Below are positions 19,286 to 28,610 of a DNA stretch of 64,000 bases, in pieces. A program made the position numbers and the translations under genes. Numbering within the stretch: position 1 is the first letter of the stretch; every line of letters starts with the position of its first letter. The notes under the pieces were generated by a model. It saw nothing but the letters and a program-made list of their open reading frames with translations, had not been told where the DNA came from and ran no database searches. Source of the stretch: Embleya scabrispora DSM 41855 (lineage in GTDB: Bacteria; Actinomycetota; Actinomycetes; Streptomycetales; Streptomycetaceae); assembly GCF_000372745.1 (NCBI RefSeq), contig NZ_KB889561.1:231288-295287 (forward strand), in the 5' to 3' direction.

Positions 19286-20653
<1,368 letters not shown>

Positions 20654-22555: not shown

Positions 22556-22894
22556 ATGCGCATGCACGGTCACGCAACGCACTTCGGCGGCCTGCCCGTC
22601 GCCGAACCGAACCGGCTCCCGCAGGCCGCGGCCGGCCGGGCCGACACCGCACGCGGCGACCAGCCCCCGCACGCACTCCCTCGGGCGCGTGACGCCGCGT
22701 GGGCGTTGCGGGTGTTGTCCGGTGGATCGTTCACCCACCTCGCGCACCTCAATCTGCGCCACCACTACATCGGGCCGACCTGGCAACAGCGCCTGCGCGA
22801 CGAGCCGTCCGGCGTGCGTTCGGACCTCGACGACGAGGAGCCCGACGACTGCGGGGACGGCGAGATCCGGCGCTACGTCGAGGTGGCCGAGTAG
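22556..22894 (+). CDS. Miniature STM4015-like protein retaining only the two ends of the family
   Basis: A 112-residue protein aligned with both ends of the next gene. Residues 10-16 are FGGLPVA, exactly the same position as in the full-length protein, which supports ATG 22556 as the start. Residues from about 65 match the last repeat and tail: LNLRHHYIGPTWQQRLRD here against LTIRHHFLSDPVAERLRT in the full copy. Both end in RYVEVAE followed by the stop. The whole leucine-rich-repeat centre (about 240 residues) is absent. In the seven C-terminal codons four differ between copies, all synonymously, as do two in the FGGLPVA codons, so both motifs seem to be kept by selection. It could be an internally deleted relic or a small substrate for the radical SAM enzymes downstream. 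Confidence 0.6.
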   Translation: MRMHGHATHFGGLPVAEPNRLPQAAAGRADTARGDQPPHALPRARDAAWALRVLSGGSFTHLAHLNLRHHYIGPTWQQRLRDEPSGVRSDLDDEEPDDCGDGEIRRYVEVAE

Positions 22895-22991
22895 ACGTCA
22901 CGCCGAAGCAGCGCCGCCGACGCGCTCCCCATCGCCCGACCAGCCCGCGCCGCCCCGTTCCCGGCCCGACCCACGAAGGTGACCCACCGAC

Positions 22992-24044
22992 ATGTCCATC
23001 TACGACTACCTCGAAGACTTCGGCGGGTTGCCCGTCGCCGACCTGCGACCGCCGGACTCGGAGGAAGCCTCGGCCGTGCCCGGGAAACAACCCGAGCAAG
23101 CCCTCCGCGACGCCCCCACACCGCCGTACGGAATCGCTCCCGGCGAGCACCCCGCGGACGCCGTCGCGTGGCGGCTGCGCCACCGCCACTGGGCGGACGA
23201 CCCGGAAATCACCGATCTCTACGAATACTTCCTCGCCAACGTCGACACCACTCGGGTCACCGCCCTGATCGTCGGCGCCTGGACCATCGACATGTCCGAG
23301 GAAAATCCGCTGATCGAACGGCTGATCCGCGACGCGGGCCGCTTCCCGGCGCTGCGCCACCTCTTCCTCGGGGACGTGGTGCAGGAGGAATCGGAGGTCT
23401 CCTGGATCGGCGTCGGCCCGTGCACCGGAATCCTCGAAGCCTTCCCGTTCCTGGAAGAACTGGTGATCCGCGGTGGCGAGAACACCCTCGAGGACCCCAG
23501 CTTCGACGGCGCCCCCGCCCTGACCGCCGTGCGTCACGAGCACCTGCGCCGCCTCCGTTTCGAGAGCGGCGGCCTGTCGGCCCGGATCGTGCGCGCCGTC
23601 GGCACGAGCGACCTCCCGGCACTCGAAGAGCTCGAACTGTGGCTCGGCGTCTCGGACTACGGCGGCGATGCCGGCATCGACGACCTCGCCGACCTGCTGT
23701 CCGGCACCCGAGTGCCCCGGCTGCGCCACCTGGGCCTGATGAACAGCGAGATCCAGGACGAGATCGCCGCCGCGATCGCGAACGCCCCGGTCACGGCCCG
23801 ACTGGAATCCCTCGACCTGTCGATGGGAACCCTGGGCGACGAAGGCGCCGAGGCTCTCCTGCAGGGCCAACCCCTGGGTCGGCTCCGCAAGCTGACGATC
23901 CGCCACCACTTCCTGAGCGACCCCGTGGCCGAGCGCCTGCGCACGACACTGCGGGCGTCCGGCGTGGCGGTGGAGATCTCCCGCCCCGAACAGCTCCCGG
24001 ATTGGCGCGACGACGACGACCGATACGTAGAGGTCGCCGAATGA
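22992..24044 (+). CDS. STM4015-family leucine-rich-repeat protein
   Basis: A 350-residue protein of the STM4015 family, named after an uncharacterised Salmonella gene. After the N-terminal FGGLPVA segment it consists of irregular leucine-rich repeats (LRHLFLGDV, LEELVIRGG, LRRLRFESGG, LEELELWLGVS, LRHLGLMNSE, LESLDLSMGTLG, LRKLTIRHHF), then a charged tail ending in DDDDRYVEVAE. No signal peptide is present. Repeats of this kind make curved protein-binding surfaces. GAAGG lies about 15 bases before the start. The stop overlaps the start of the ATP-grasp gene (ATGA at 24041), so the two are translationally coupled. Its role in the system is unknown; scaffold and substrate are both possible. Confidence 0.85.
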   Translation: MSIYDYLEDFGGLPVADLRPPDSEEASAVPGKQPEQALRDAPTPPYGIAPGEHPADAVAWRLRHRHWADDPEITDLYEYFLANVDTTRVTALIVGAWTIDMSEENPLIERLIRDAGRFPALRHLFLGDVVQEESEVSWIGVGPCTGILEAFPFLEELVIRGGENTLEDPSFDGAPALTAVRHEHLRRLRFESGGLSARIVRAVGTSDLPALEELELWLGVSDYGGDAGIDDLADLLSGTRVPRLRHLGLMNSEIQDEIAAAIANAPVTARLESLDLSMGTLGDEGAEALLQGQPLGRLRKLTIRHHFLSDPVAERLRTTLRASGVAVEISRPEQLPDWRDDDDRYVEVAE

Positions 24045-25249
24045 GTCCGGGTCCATCCGGCACGGCTCTCGACCGGCACCGGAACAACCGTGCGCCTGCC
24101 CCCACCACGATCACCGTCGTCGCAAACCCCGGACACCGGCGCCTCGTGGGATTCGCGGCGGCGGCGCGGGCCGCCGGGTTGCCGGCCCCGAATGTCGTCC
24201 CCTGGCAGGACGTACTGCGCGGCACCCGGCTCGCCGTCGCCGCCGGACCGGTTCGGATCGACTCACCCGGCGAGGATCCCGCCGTGCACGCCCTGCTCGG
24301 CGGCCCCGCGGACCCGCACCGCGTGGAGGGCGGGGCGGTCCGCCACGCGGCTTTTCGTCGTGCGCTGGAGCGGGTGCGGTGCGCCGTAGCCTCGACTCCC
24401 GGCGCGTGGCTCGTCAACGATCCCGACGAGATCGCGGTCATGTTCGACAAGCCACGCGCGCACGAGCGGCTGCGCGACGCGGGTGTCCCCGTTCCGCCCG
24501 GGTTGGGCACCGACGGGCGCGGCGTCGCGGTGCGCTCGTACGCCGAACTGCGCGATGTGATGCGCGGCAGCCGCCACCCGCGCGTCTTCGTCAAGCCCGC
24601 CCACGGCTCGTCGGCCTCCGGAGTGTTGGCCCTGGAGACCTCGGGTGCGCGGGTGCAGGCCACCACGTCCGCCGAACTGGTCCGCACCGGGCCGGGCGTC
24701 ACACTGTTCAACTCGCTGCGGGTGCGCAGATATCGCACCGAGGCGGATGTCGCGGCCCTGGTCGACACGCTGTGCGCGGACGGCGTGCACGTCGAGACCT
24801 GGCTGCCCAAACTCACTCTGGACGGGCTCGCCGTCGACCTGCGCGTCCTGGTCGTCGCGGGCCGCGCCACTCACGTCGTCGCGCGCGGCAGCCGTTCCCC
24901 GATGACCAACCTTCACCTGGGCAACGCCCGCGTCGACGTCGACGTCGTGCGCCGCGCCGTGGGGTCCACAGGCTGGGACGAGGCCATGGCGACATGTGTT
25001 CGCGCGGCCGGATGTTTTCCCCGTACGCTGCACGTCGGCGTCGACCTGCTGTTCTCGGTCGACCGGCGCCGGCACGCGGTCGGCGAGGTCAACGCGTTCG
25101 GTGATCTGCTGCCGGGCGTGCTGCATCGGGGCCGGGACACGTGGGGGGAGCAGGTCCGGGCCCTGGTCGAGGGATGGCGCCCGCCCGGGACATCACGTCC
25201 GGCGGGACGGGAAGCACCAGACGAGGACCAACTGCCGTGTCCGACCTGA
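24041..25249 (+). CDS. STM4014-family protein with ATP-grasp-like fold
   Basis: A 402-residue protein. The N-terminal 100 residues form a small alpha/beta domain (TTITVVANPGHRRLVGFAAAARAAGLPAPNVVPW). From about residue 140 the sequence follows an ATP-grasp ligase: MFDKPRAHERLRDAGVPVPPGLG, then RVFVKPAHGSSASGV as the ATP-binding strand-loop. Further on come LAVDLRVLVVAGRATHVVARGS and the metal-binding end HVGVDLLFSVDRRRHAVGEVNAFGDLLPG. ATP-grasp enzymes join a carboxylate to an amine or thiol through an acyl phosphate. This fits a peptide- or protein-modifying pathway with two radical SAM enzymes. The start overlaps the preceding stop, and its own end overlaps the next gene by 13 bases. Confidence 0.85.
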   Translation: MSPGPSGTALDRHRNNRAPAPTTITVVANPGHRRLVGFAAAARAAGLPAPNVVPWQDVLRGTRLAVAAGPVRIDSPGEDPAVHALLGGPADPHRVEGGAVRHAAFRRALERVRCAVASTPGAWLVNDPDEIAVMFDKPRAHERLRDAGVPVPPGLGTDGRGVAVRSYAELRDVMRGSRHPRVFVKPAHGSSASGVLALETSGARVQATTSAELVRTGPGVTLFNSLRVRRYRTEADVAALVDTLCADGVHVETWLPKLTLDGLAVDLRVLVVAGRATHVVARGSRSPMTNLHLGNARVDVDVVRRAVGSTGWDEAMATCVRAAGCFPRTLHVGVDLLFSVDRRRHAVGEVNAFGDLLPGVLHRGRDTWGEQVRALVEGWRPPGTSRPAGREAPDEDQLPCPT

Positions 25250-26106
25250 CCACACCTGTTCCGGCGCACTCCCGGGACGACGGCCACGACCCCGACATGA
25301 ACGAGGTCGTCGGCCGCCACGACCTGCTCATGGTCACGCTCGACACGTTGCGGTACGACGTGGCCGCGGAACTCGCGGCTGCCGGTCGACTGCCCAATCT
25401 CGCACGCGTGTTGCCCAAAGGACGCTGGGAGGCCAGGCACACCCCGGGCAGCTTCACGTACGCCGCACACACCGCGTTCCTCGCCGGCTTCCTGCCCACC
25501 CCGCAGGCTCCCGGCCCGCATCCGCGTCTGTTCGCGGCGCGCTTCGGCGGCAGCGAGTCCACTGCGCCGCGCACGTGGGTGTTCGACGAACCCGACCTGC
25601 CTTCGGGGCTGGCGCGGGCGGGCTATCACACGGCCTGCATCGGCGGCGTGGGCTTCTTCAACAAGCAGGGCGCGCTGGGCTCGGTCCTGCCCGGGCTGTT
25701 CGCGGAGAGCCACTGGAGCCCCGAGTCGGGCGTCACCTCGCCCACGTCGTTCGAGACCCAGGTCGCGTGCGCGGAACGCGTCGTCGCCGCCGTGGACTTC
25801 GACCGGCGGCTCTTCCTGTTGGTCAACGTGGCGGCGCTGCACCAGCCGAACTGGTTCCACCTGCCCGGCGCGACGGCCGCCGAGGGCGATACGCGCGAGA
25901 CGCACGCGGCGGCGCTGGAGTACGTGGACCGGCATCTGGGCCGGCTCTTCCGGGCGATGAGCAGCCGTCGTCCGTGCTTCGTCGTCGTGACGTCCGACCA
26001 CGGCACGGCGTACGGGGAGGACGGCTACACGGGGCACCGCATCGGGCACGAGGTGGTGTGGAGCGTGCCGTACGCGCAGTTCACGCTGTACCCGGGCGAC
26101 TGGTGA
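25237..26106 (+). CDS. STM4013-family hydrolase (alkaline phosphatase/sulfatase superfamily)
   Basis: A 289-residue member of the alkaline phosphatase/sulfatase superfamily, which hydrolyses phosphate or sulfate esters using divalent metals. The first metal-binding Asp is in LLMVTLDTLRYDVA. The nucleophile region is HTPGSFTYAAHTAFLAG, with Ser/Thr rather than the Cys needed for formylglycine, so it is not a standard sulfatase. The second metal site is VVVTSDHGTAYGEDGYTGHRIGH. GTG at 25237 is chosen because GAGGA lies nine bases upstream; it overlaps the ATP-grasp gene by 13 bases. It has no signal peptide, so it would act in the cytoplasm with the other products of the operon. Confidence 0.82.
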   Translation: MSDLTTPVPAHSRDDGHDPDMNEVVGRHDLLMVTLDTLRYDVAAELAAAGRLPNLARVLPKGRWEARHTPGSFTYAAHTAFLAGFLPTPQAPGPHPRLFAARFGGSESTAPRTWVFDEPDLPSGLARAGYHTACIGGVGFFNKQGALGSVLPGLFAESHWSPESGVTSPTSFETQVACAERVVAAVDFDRRLFLLVNVAALHQPNWFHLPGATAAEGDTRETHAAALEYVDRHLGRLFRAMSSRRPCFVVVTSDHGTAYGEDGYTGHRIGHEVVWSVPYAQFTLYPGDW

Positions 26107-26268
26107 CGTCGCGGGCGGCGCGAACGGCGGCACACGAGGGCACCCGGCGCGGCGGCGCCGGTTCGCGACTCGGGGACCCGGTCGGCTGCCGTGTCGGCTC
26201 GCGCGCATAGGGTCGGGACATCGCGCGCCTTGCGCACCACCCGGTCACGTCGTCGGAGGTCATCGCCC

Positions 26269-27651
26269 ATGGGGTCGCCCGGCACCACCGATCCCGCGTC
26301 CCCGCCGTCGGCGGTGGCGGACCTGCTCGGGTCGCCGTACGCGGGATACGTCTACTCGTATCCGCACAAGACCGCGTACCGCCCGCTCGACCCGGAGCCC
26401 GCGCTGAGCCAGGTGTGGCGGGGCCGGGACCTGTCGGCGTTGTTTCTCTACCTGCACATACCGTTTTGTGAGATGCGCTGCGGCTTTTGCAACCTGTTCA
26501 CCCGCACGGGTGCGCCGCAGGAACTGGTCGGGCGCTACCTGGACGCGCTCGAACGTCAGGCGCGGGCCGTGCGCGAGGCGATACCCGACGCACGTTTCGC
26601 GATCGCGGCGGTGGGTGGCGGGACGCCCACCTACCTCGACGCACCCGAACTGGAGCGGCTGTTCGACATCGCCACGGAGGTGATGGGTGCGGACCTCGGC
26701 GCGATCGCGACGTCCGTCGAGACCTCCCCCGCGACGGCGACGCCCGAGCGCCTGAAGGTGTTGGCCGCGCGTGGGACGACCCGGGTCAGCATCGGCGTAC
26801 AGTCGTTCGACGACGCCGAGGCCCGCGCGGTGGGGCGCCCGCAGCGCCGCGCCGACGTGGAGGCCGCGCTCACGGCGATCCGGGACGCGGCGCTGCCGAT
26901 CCTCAACATCGACCTGATCTACGGCATCGACGGCCAGACCCGGGCCGATTGGCTGGCCTCCATCGACGCGGCGCTCGCGTGGGAGCCGGAGGAGTTGTAC
27001 CTCTACCCGTTGTACGTGCGTCCGCTCACCGGCCTCGGCCGGCGCGCCGTCACGCGGGCCGATTGGGACACCGACCGCCTCGCGCTCTACCGCGCGGGCC
27101 GCGACCGGCTGCGCGAAGCCGGCTACGAGCAGGTGTCGATGCGCATGTTCCGCCGGGCGGACGCGCCGACCTACGCCGGCGGCGCTGTAGGCGGGGAGAG
27201 CGGCTACCGCTGCCAGCGCGACGGCATGATCGGGCTCGGCTGCGGCGCCCGTTCGTACACCTCCGACCTGCACTACTCGTTCGAGTACGCGGTCGGGATC
27301 GGCGAGGTGCGGGCGATCATCGACGACTATGTGACGCTCGATCAGGAAGCCTTCACCCGCGCCCGCGTCGGCTATCGGCTCGATGCGGGCGAGCGACGCA
27401 GGCGGTACCTGCTCACCTCGCTGCTCCAGGCCGACGGCCTGGCCGCGGCCGACTACCGGGCGGCTTTCGGCACCGACGCCGCCGCCGACTTCGCCGCCGA
27501 ACTCGCGCGGCCGGCCCGGGCCGGCCTGTTGACCGTCTCCGAGACGGGTGTACGCCTGACCGAGGAGGGCCTGGCCTGGTCCGACGCGATCGGCCCGGCG
27601 TTGTTCTCGCCCGAGACCGCCGCCCTGATGCACGGATACCGCCCGCGGTGA
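26269..27651 (+). CDS. STM4012-family radical SAM protein (HemN/HemW-like)
   Basis: A 460-residue radical SAM enzyme. The [4Fe-4S] motif is HIPFCEMRCGFCNLF with Cys67, Cys71 and Cys74 (CxxxCxxC). AVGGGTPTYLD is the GGE-like SAM-binding strand, followed by VSIGVQSFDDAEARAVGR, typical of the coproporphyrinogen-oxidase-like HemN/HemW subgroup. After the core the chain continues to a C-terminal winged-helix-like segment (LLTSLLQADGLAAADYRAAFG). The start ATG 26269 has GGAGG nine bases upstream. A 162-base gap separates it from the hydrolase gene, so an internal promoter is possible. The stop overlaps the start of the next radical SAM gene (GTGA). Reaction and substrate are unknown. Confidence 0.88.
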   Translation: MGSPGTTDPASPPSAVADLLGSPYAGYVYSYPHKTAYRPLDPEPALSQVWRGRDLSALFLYLHIPFCEMRCGFCNLFTRTGAPQELVGRYLDALERQARAVREAIPDARFAIAAVGGGTPTYLDAPELERLFDIATEVMGADLGAIATSVETSPATATPERLKVLAARGTTRVSIGVQSFDDAEARAVGRPQRRADVEAALTAIRDAALPILNIDLIYGIDGQTRADWLASIDAALAWEPEELYLYPLYVRPLTGLGRRAVTRADWDTDRLALYRAGRDRLREAGYEQVSMRMFRRADAPTYAGGAVGGESGYRCQRDGMIGLGCGARSYTSDLHYSFEYAVGIGEVRAIIDDYVTLDQEAFTRARVGYRLDAGERRRRYLLTSLLQADGLAAADYRAAFGTDAAADFAAELARPARAGLLTVSETGVRLTEEGLAWSDAIGPALFSPETAALMHGYRPR

Positions 27652-28610
27652 CCCGACGTCTCGTCGGCACGGCGCTGCCCCTGGCCCAACCGCGCGCGTG
27701 CGCCGACCCGTTGACGATCCTGTACCGGGGTCCGCTCGCCTCGTGCGACTACGACTGCGGCTACTGTCCGTTCGCCAAGCGCCGCGATACGCCCGAGCAA
27801 CTGCGGGCCGACCGCGCGGCGTTGGCCCGCTTCGCGGATTGGGTGACGCACGCTCCGGACCGTGTGTCGCTCCTGTTCACCCCGTGGGGCGAGGGCCTCG
27901 TGCGCGGTTGGTACCGCCGTACGCTCGCCGAGTTGAGCCGGCTCCCGCACGTCGAGCGCGTGGCCATCCAGACCAACCTGAGCGCGCATCCCCGGTGGAC
28001 CGAGGCGGCGGATCGCACCCGCCTGGCGCTGTGGGCCACCTACCACCCCGACCAGGTCCCCTACGCGCGATTTCTGGACCGTTGCCGCGACCTGCACGCA
28101 CGCGGCGTACGCTTCAGCGTCGGTGTGGTCGGGCTGCCCGAACACCTCTTCGCCGCACGGCGTCTGCGGGCCGACCTCCCGGCCGACGTGTACCTGTGGA
28201 TCAACGCCGCCGAGGGTCACTCGTACACCGATGCGGCGGCCGCCGAATGGACCGCGCTGGACCCGCACTTCGGCTTCAGCCGGCATCCGCATCCGTCCCG
28301 TGGCGTACCGTGCCGCACGGGCGACACCGTGATCAGCGTCGACGGCGAGGGCACGGTACGCCGTTGCCATTTCGTGCCCGAGGTGCTGGGCAACCTCTAC
28401 GACGGCTCGTTCCGTGCCGCGCTCGCCCCGGCGCCGCCCTGCCCCGCACGGGCCTGCGACTGCCACATCGGCTACGTCCACCTGACGTCGCTACCCCTGT
28501 ACGACGTCTTCGCCGACGGCATCCTCGAACGCGTCCCGGCGCCACCGAAATCGGCACCACGCGCAACCGAAGGCGGCGCATCGGGCGCGGTCGACCGACT
28601 CGGTGATTGA
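27648..28610 (+). CDS. STM4011-family radical SAM protein
   Basis: A 320-residue radical SAM enzyme with the cluster motif SCDYDCGYCPF (Cys33, Cys37, Cys40). LLFTPWGEGLVRGWYRRTLAELSRL is the GGE-type segment. The C-terminal third has several cysteines (VPCRTGDT, VRRCHFVPE, PPCPARACDCHIGY) arranged like an auxiliary-cluster or SPASM-type extension, as seen in enzymes that modify peptides and proteins. GTG at 27648 overlaps the stop of the STM4012-like gene, so production of the two radical SAM enzymes is coupled. It is the last gene of the unit; the next gene is convergent 25 bases away. Confidence 0.87.
   Translation: MTRRLVGTALPLAQPRACADPLTILYRGPLASCDYDCGYCPFAKRRDTPEQLRADRAALARFADWVTHAPDRVSLLFTPWGEGLVRGWYRRTLAELSRLPHVERVAIQTNLSAHPRWTEAADRTRLALWATYHPDQVPYARFLDRCRDLHARGVRFSVGVVGLPEHLFAARRLRADLPADVYLWINAAEGHSYTDAAAAEWTALDPHFGFSRHPHPSRGVPCRTGDTVISVDGEGTVRRCHFVPEVLGNLYDGSFRAALAPAPPCPARACDCHIGYVHLTSLPLYDVFADGILERVPAPPKSAPRATEGGASGAVDRLGD

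Follow-up and report, generated by a model that had tools for sequence, protein, structure and literature searches.

What do five adjacent genes of the STM4011-STM4015 families, a set without assigned function, do in the actinomycete Embleya scabrispora DSM 41855? The genes lie on the forward strand in a stretch of 64,000 nucleotides (nt) from contig NZ_KB889561.1 (positions 231,288 to 295,287, assembly GCF_000372745.1), which we call the window; coordinates below are window positions with the stop codon included. They encode a leucine-rich-repeat (LRR) protein of 350 amino acids (aa) (STM4015 family, 22992-24044), an ATP-grasp ligase of 402 aa (STM4014 family, 24041-25249), an alkaline-phosphatase/sulfatase-superfamily hydrolase of 289 aa (STM4013 family, 25237-26106), a HemN-like radical S-adenosylmethionine (SAM) enzyme of 460 aa (STM4012 family, 26269-27651) and a second radical SAM enzyme of 320 aa (STM4011 family, 27648-28610). 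The original prediction, made on the DNA letters, read the set as suggesting a post-translational modification or small-molecule pathway and left its mechanism open. Here, we propose that STM4014 ligates a molecule to the C-terminal glutamate of STM4015, a step that has good support from sequence conservation and a modelled fold and that we hold to be somewhat more likely than not. A near-invariant terminal Glu encoded beside a RimK/LysX-type ligase gives this set one directly testable reaction.

All five genes score above the curated NCBIfam cut-offs of the families first assigned to them: 342 bits against 275 for STM4015 (NF038076), 420 against 175 for STM4014 (NF038074), 417 against 250 for STM4013 (NF038075), 623 against 380 for STM4012 (NF006067) and 394 against 200 for STM4011 (NF038073). 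Pfam concurs with LRR_6, ATP-grasp (weak), Sulfatase/Phosphodiest, Radical_SAM with HemN_C, and Radical_SAM (weak), respectively. The families have therefore been noticed already, as NCBIfam annotation names that carry no function, and no mechanism was found in the literature searched. That search agreed with the earlier statement that the system had never been described, since it returned no paper on the system, the genes being named only in genome-wide tables; it returned none that combines radical SAM, ATP-grasp and leucine-rich repeat and none on the associated family DUF6745, and it did not cover an older ATP-grasp neighbourhood survey that possibly names the set. Two details of the first description needed adjustment. 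The genes were said to be coupled, which is true of the 15/14, 14/13 and 12/11 junctions (overlaps of 4, 13 and 4 nt) and not of the 13/12 junction, where the gap is 162 nt (84 nt if an alternative GTG start at 26191 is used), so the junctions are not all strictly coupled. In addition, position 22556, given as the start, holds the ATG of another ORF, which encodes a 112-aa STM4015 paralogue; the five-gene set itself spans 22992-28610.

The STM4015 terminus and the STM4014 fold

The window's STM4015 ends in the tail DRYVEVAE (24018-24041, forward strand), whose closing Glu (codon 24039-24041) we propose as the point of attachment. Of 119 STM4015 open reading frames (ORFs), 114 end in Glu; among the other five, most have a broken frame or are truncated, and one is a tandem copy that reads AVSE-YLQD. 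The penultimate residue is Ser, Gly, Ala or Thr in 113/119, the one before it is Val, Ile or Leu in most, and the tail consensus is [RY][YF][VIT]A[VI][SGAT]E. In the STM4015 alignment, the terminal Glu is present in 113 of 114 rows and is conserved on par with the structural Leu, Gly and Pro residues of the repeats, and the acidic linker ahead of it is gapped and variable in both length and sequence. In the other four families of the cassette, no particular residue is preferred at the end. The Glu is also kept in orphan STM4015 copies, in Embleya and other genera, with the exception of one weak copy; a full-length orphan lies far from the cassette in the window's own genome (C58:173431-174339, locus L005) with an intact tail, GRYIEVSE. 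Planctomycete cassettes (L048, 9392-12069; L061, 10791-12302) encode distant WGR-LRR proteins, with the WGR domain confirmed in L061 and a divergent STM4014 alongside, and these proteins end in GDWE, GDIE and GDYE. The solved STM4015 homologue 2ra8 from Bacteroides fragilis (match E 9e-30) ends in YPMITE followed by extra residues that we interpret as a purification tag. Since a single residue is conserved across phyla at the end of a flexible tail, these comparisons suggest a chemical role for it.

The AlphaFold2 model of STM4014 has a mean predicted local distance difference test (pLDDT) score of 92. With a DALI-like aligner, its nine top structural matches are all RimK, ArgX or LysX, including complexes with LysW and RpsF, at Z 21.9-23.8 (RimK 23.8, ArgX 23.8, LysX 23.4, LysX/ArgX 23.4); entries 3vpb, 3vpd and 5k2m align over 263-271 residues at a root-mean-square deviation of 2.8 (Z 23.8, 23.4 and 23.4). 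Glutathione synthetase and DcsG follow at Z 21.5. Foldseek ranks PsnB with its precursor peptide, ArgX:LysW and LysX at the top, and a second-look aligner placed no non-ATP-grasp family near the top, an absence that does not count as evidence there. A profile-profile comparison with E. coli RimK by hhalign (96% probability, E 3.6e-9) aligned DLR...TNLHLGN of STM4014 with DIR...SNLHRGG of RimK, and the ATP-grasp residues are present. D335, N351, G354 and D355 are invariant, E349 is invariant in a 43-row alignment and conserved in at least 90% of a 50-row alignment, and D335, E349 and N351 are predicted to bind Mg. The terminal Glu of STM4015 and the fold of STM4014 are two independent lines of evidence that point to the same reaction.

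Enzymes of this fold are known to work on protein C-termini. The C-terminal Glu of LysW is the residue to which LysX and ArgX couple an amine, and the GSWGR motif of these ligases recognises the terminal EDWGE motif of LysW; in the LysW homologue ArgW, the mutation E54A causes arginine auxotrophy (PMC10433800). RimK, for its part, extends the RpsF C-terminus with Glu (PMC10092738). As in the LysW/LysX and ArgW/ArgX pairs, the protein here ends in Glu after an acidic stretch and the ligase gene next to it encodes the same fold (Z 23.4-23.8); as a further proposed likeness, additional enzymes would act on the bound substrate. With RimK, STM4014 shares the ATP-grasp fold and the DxR and [ST]NLHxG motifs. 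The differences are considerable: LysW is a zinc protein of about 54 aa and STM4015 an LRR protein of about 350 aa, the two having the terminal Glu in common, and in place of LysZ/Y/J/K there are here two radical SAM enzymes and a phosphatase-superfamily hydrolase. RimK has 300 aa and STM4014 402 aa, the partner is RpsF in one case and STM4015 in the other, and the cassette links radical SAM genes and holds no RimA/RimB genes. STM4015 lacks the EDWGE motif and the zinc-binding cysteines of LysW, GSWGR is not seen in the STM4014 sequence or consensus, and STM4014 scores 18.4 bits with TIGR00768 (RimK family), far under the cut-off of 143.4. Because of these absences, STM4014 and STM4015 are, by analogy, comparable in function to the LysX and RimK systems and are not members of them.

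Co-occurrence and gene order

We searched 121 Streptomycetaceae genomes with profiles for STM4011, STM4013, STM4014 and STM4015; STM4012 is adjacent in nearly all loci read. STM4011 exceeded its cut-off in 57 genomes, and all 57 also hold cassette-type STM4013, STM4014 and STM4015. Among the 64 genomes lacking STM4011, cassette-type STM4013 was found in none, STM4014 in one and STM4015 in four; these exceptions come from G159, whose cassette is degenerate, and from three genomes in which STM4015 is an orphan. In a set of 89 loci, consisting of 80 loci from GTDB genomes found by STM4011 profile scan, eight annotated plasmid loci and the window, the complete five-gene set is present in 76, and contig ends cut most of the remainder. 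Co-occurrence had been chosen beforehand as the point on which the view of the five genes as one system would fall or hold; the homologues do co-occur and no separate known functions were found, which supports that view.

The set had also been said to be conserved across distant bacteria, and it was found in about a dozen phyla: Actinomycetota, Pseudomonadota (alpha, beta and gamma), Deinococcota, Chloroflexota, Planctomycetota, Acidobacteriota, Bacteroidota, Cyanobacteriota, Myxococcota, Bacillota and, as a fragment, Armatimonadota. The carriers include Salmonella plasmids, Bacteroides, Deinococcus, Methylobacterium and about half of the sampled Streptomycetaceae genomes, and a megablast search with the Salmonella cassette gave no match in 5,426 complete E. 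coli genomes. The order is 15-14-13-12-11, with one to six copies of STM4015, in 72 loci; Bacteroidota and Planctomycetota loci have 13-12-11-15-14 or a similar order, and in two other loci 14 and 15 are inverted as a pair. All three arrangements keep 15-14 together and 13-12-11 together, and therefore STM4015+STM4014 and STM4013+STM4012+STM4011 form two blocks that move as units.

Predicted chemistry and competing readings

STM4013 matches Pfam Sulfatase (E 4e-10, 39.9 bits, cut-off 25) and Phosphodiest (E 4e-7, 30.4 bits, cut-off 23), and the nearest solved sequences are nucleotide pyrophosphatase/phosphodiesterases (NPP). Its Thr, Asp and His site residues are conserved in 81-83 of 84 rows, and the predicted nucleophile is the Thr of GSFTYAAH (codon 25456-25458), in an FTYxxH motif as in NPP enzymes. 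STM4012 matches Radical_SAM (E 5e-20) and HemN_C (E 4e-9) and has the Cx3Cx2C motif CEMRCGFC at 26467-26490, continuing as CEMRCGFCNLF, unlike HemN, in which the cysteine motif is CxxxCxxCxC; it lies under the equivalog cut-offs for both HemN (137.6 against 324.95 bits) and HemW (126.9 against 205.4 bits). STM4011 has its Cx3Cx2C motif, CDYDCGYC, at 27744-27767 (C33, C37 and C40, invariant), and its candidate auxiliary-cluster cysteines C222, C240, C265, C270 and C272 (28311-28463) are invariant in alignments of 42 and 49 rows and present in 87-88 of 88 rows in a third.

Auxiliary clusters of SPASM and twitch enzymes follow the pattern CX9-15GX4C. In STM4011, C222-X12-G235-X4-C240 matches this first half, as in BlsE, SkfB, SuiB, EpeE and BtrN, with which it also shares the radical SAM core and further invariant cysteines. 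The second SPASM half, CX2CX5CX3C-gap-C, is not matched: at that place only C265-X4-C270-X-C272 (CX4CXC) is conserved, and no other NCBIfam family was hit. The earlier remark on SPASM-like C-terminal cysteines is thus correct in part: they fit the pattern in its first half and depart from it in the second. The STM4011 model (pLDDT 86) is nearest in fold to BlsE (Z 16.8), a radical SAM decarboxylase (PMC3715490), and then to the peptide maturases SkfB and SuiB. In Bacteroides, STM4011 carries a fused HAD phosphatase domain, in Salmonella an HAD gene comes after STM4011, and an HAD gene lies within the cassette locus in Chitinophaga, Saprospiraceae and Myxococcus; because of this association, a phosphorylated intermediate in the pathway is plausible. 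The catalytic motifs are intact in the aligned cassette enzymes.

We propose that the five genes make up one pathway with two working blocks. In the first, STM4014 would use ATP to activate the C-terminal Glu of STM4015 and attach a molecule with an amine group, probably an amino acid; docking and recognition would fall to the LRR body, whose polar surface is conserved, and the reaction itself to the tail after the flexible acidic linker. In the second, STM4011 (twitch/SPASM-like) and STM4012 (HemN-like) would alter the bound group or the tail, and STM4013, an NPP/sulfatase-type metal hydrolase joined in some lineages by an HAD phosphatase, would take off a phosphate- or sulfate-type group. 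We infer only weakly the chemistry of this second block and whether the product is released, as from a LysW-like carrier, or kept on the protein. STM4015 could be such a carrier or could itself be the finished, modified protein. The whole picture, a widespread and horizontally moving pathway in which a molecule ligated to the C-terminal Glu of an LRR protein, as covalent carrier or permanently tagged protein, is rebuilt there by two radical SAM enzymes and a hydrolase, is tentative, and we would not give it an even chance. Besides LysW carriers, C-terminal protein-scaffolded biosynthesis is known from aminoacyl-tRNA-dependent scaffold peptides. If the picture is true, an LRR-protein-scaffolded route would be a third kind, added to the small number of systems known to assemble molecules on a protein C-terminus, and its radical SAM chemistry could yield a new cofactor, metabolite or protein modification.

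Several observations weigh against ligation to the terminal Glu, in addition to the missing EDWGE, zinc-cysteine and GSWGR features. Some members of the ATP-grasp superfamily take small molecules in free form as substrates, and their Z is lower by only about 2. Up to six diverged tandem STM4015 copies exceed the needs of a simple carrier. The three genomes with STM4015 and no cassette still keep the Glu, although relaxation could be expected there; their penultimate residues are E, T and D, unusual in two of the three, and so small a sample says little either way. The fetched regions of about 20 kb around L104 (Myxococcus dinghuensis) and L108 (Streptacidiphilus anmyonensis) have the radical SAM genes without 15-14. 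Two protein families associated with the cassette, DUF6745 and a His-rich protein of about 100 aa, have fixed C-termini as well (DUF6745 ends in [EQ]T in 40/42, with E or Q as the penultimate residue in 42/42, and the other ends in D in 43/43), so a conserved terminus alone is no proof of attachment; unlike in STM4015, no variable linker precedes theirs.

The alternative that survives best, although still unlikely in our view, is that STM4015 is the end product: an LRR-protein family in which the other four enzymes turn the tail into a lasting prosthetic group or tag, under guidance from the LRR body. A family of protein products would fit the tandem copies, one to six per locus and 45-73% identical, and the further, unlinked copies within one genome, which share the tail with a single exception; the recurrent neighbours include no recognised peptidase family. 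The LRR surface, however, is not diversified: the polar LRR-body residues D128, E132, E135, S137, W138, H305 and H306 are about 87-97% conserved in all copies, which suggests docking to common enzymes, and this conservation, along with a hydrolase block that is harder to explain if the tail is permanent, speaks for a carrier.

It is improbable, though deserving of weight, that STM4015 is a non-covalent scaffold which brings the four enzymes together around a soluble small-molecule substrate and whose C-terminus is a docking peptide and not an attachment site. Protein binding is common among LRR proteins, a conserved terminal peptide can act as a docking motif, and free metabolites are the substrates of many ATP-grasp relatives. 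The closest folds to STM4014, however, act on protein C-termini, and residues -2 to -8 of the tail vary across phyla so that only the terminal Glu persists, an odd pattern for docking. Less probable again is a RimK-like polyglutamylase activity of STM4014 that puts a regulatory Glu tag on the STM4015 tail, with the radical SAM enzymes engaged in a separate small-molecule step. RimK, which acts on a C-terminal Glu, ties with ArgX as the best structural match, but STM4014 co-occurs perfectly with a hydrolase and two radical SAM enzymes, which suggests further chemistry, and the annotated neighbours showed no protease partner of the RimB type. The weakest alternative is a graspetide- or sactipeptide-like ribosomally made peptide, with STM4015 as a precursor with a giant LRR leader and a core tail cross-linked by STM4014 and the radical SAM enzymes: despite the first rank of PsnB with its precursor in Foldseek, the likeness of STM4011 to SkfB and SuiB, and the way in which graspetide ligases (PsnB, MdnB/MdnC) act on a ribosomally made substrate encoded next to them, this is very doubtful, as graspetides need pairs of an acid with a hydroxyl or amine in the core and the tail has one near-invariant acidic residue, its terminal Glu, with no invariant Ser, Thr, Lys or Cys partner, and no leader-binding (RRE) domain or peptidase was recognised.

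Shortened copies and associated genes

The 112-aa ORF upstream of the cassette (mini-STM4015, 22556-22894, forward strand) matches NF038076 positions 226-290 (E 8e-9). It retains the N-terminal HFGGLPV motif, the last repeat LNLRHHYIG and the tail RRYVEVAE, its middle repeats are absent, and its GC content at third codon positions is coding-like (0.89). Partial STM4015 copies were also found in G165 (L178, ORF at 385), where, as in the window, the N-terminal motif, last repeat(s) and Glu tail are present and the middle repeats absent, and in G173 (L179, ORF at 664), which is a C-terminal fragment. Such shortened copies may represent tandem copies in decay or minimal proteins that bear the tail. 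We rejected mini-STM4015 as a conserved minimal carrier: in the sister Embleya genomes G152 and G167 the equivalent place is occupied by a full-length STM4015, and the G165 and G173 copies are not orthologue-like. For the same reasons, decay by deletion is at least as likely an origin for it, judged from these sequences. Frame-broken or remnant cassettes occur elsewhere in Streptomycetaceae (L133 in G159, L132 in G249, L134 in G163 and L135 in G186), from recurrent loss or sequencing errors, and on a Bacteroides finegoldii plasmid (L043, 8572-8950) STM4013 and STM4012 are only fragments while STM4015, STM4014 and the STM4011-HAD fusion are still open.

DUF6745 lies near the cassette in 42 fetched loci and the His-rich protein of about 100 aa (MYRQGDV...REYxPG) in about 44; both were counted with targeted profiles, all-against-all BLAST clustering of neighbours having been swamped by shadow ORFs at high GC. 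In Streptomycetaceae, DUF6745 is present in 49 of the 57 cassette genomes and in 6 of the 64 cassette-less ones. Loci with one or the other beside the cassette include L039, L040, L045-L047, L051, L053, L054 and L078; in the window's genome both are on another contig, C101 (L147/L148).

A search with PADLOC gave no ground for a role in anti-phage defence, returning only a weak match of STM4012 (PDC-M51A, E 3e-5, 20.9 bits). A second STM4013 subfamily (about 320-360 bits) is unlinked to the cassette and occurs in the window's own genome (C101:138343, L147) and in L149-L154. No substrate is indicated by the neighbourhoods of these paralogues. In several Streptomyces, the gene adjoins a different, MoaA-like radical SAM gene (CNxACWFCHNEG) and the genes of a kinase-like and a Nudix protein; this neighbourhood hints that the subfamily may belong to another undescribed radical SAM pathway. 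Elsewhere in the window and unrelated to the cassette, the gene at 19286-20614 (reverse strand) appears by eye to encode a class III aminotransferase or an enzyme of the dialkylglycine-decarboxylase type and lies beside a LysR-type regulator.

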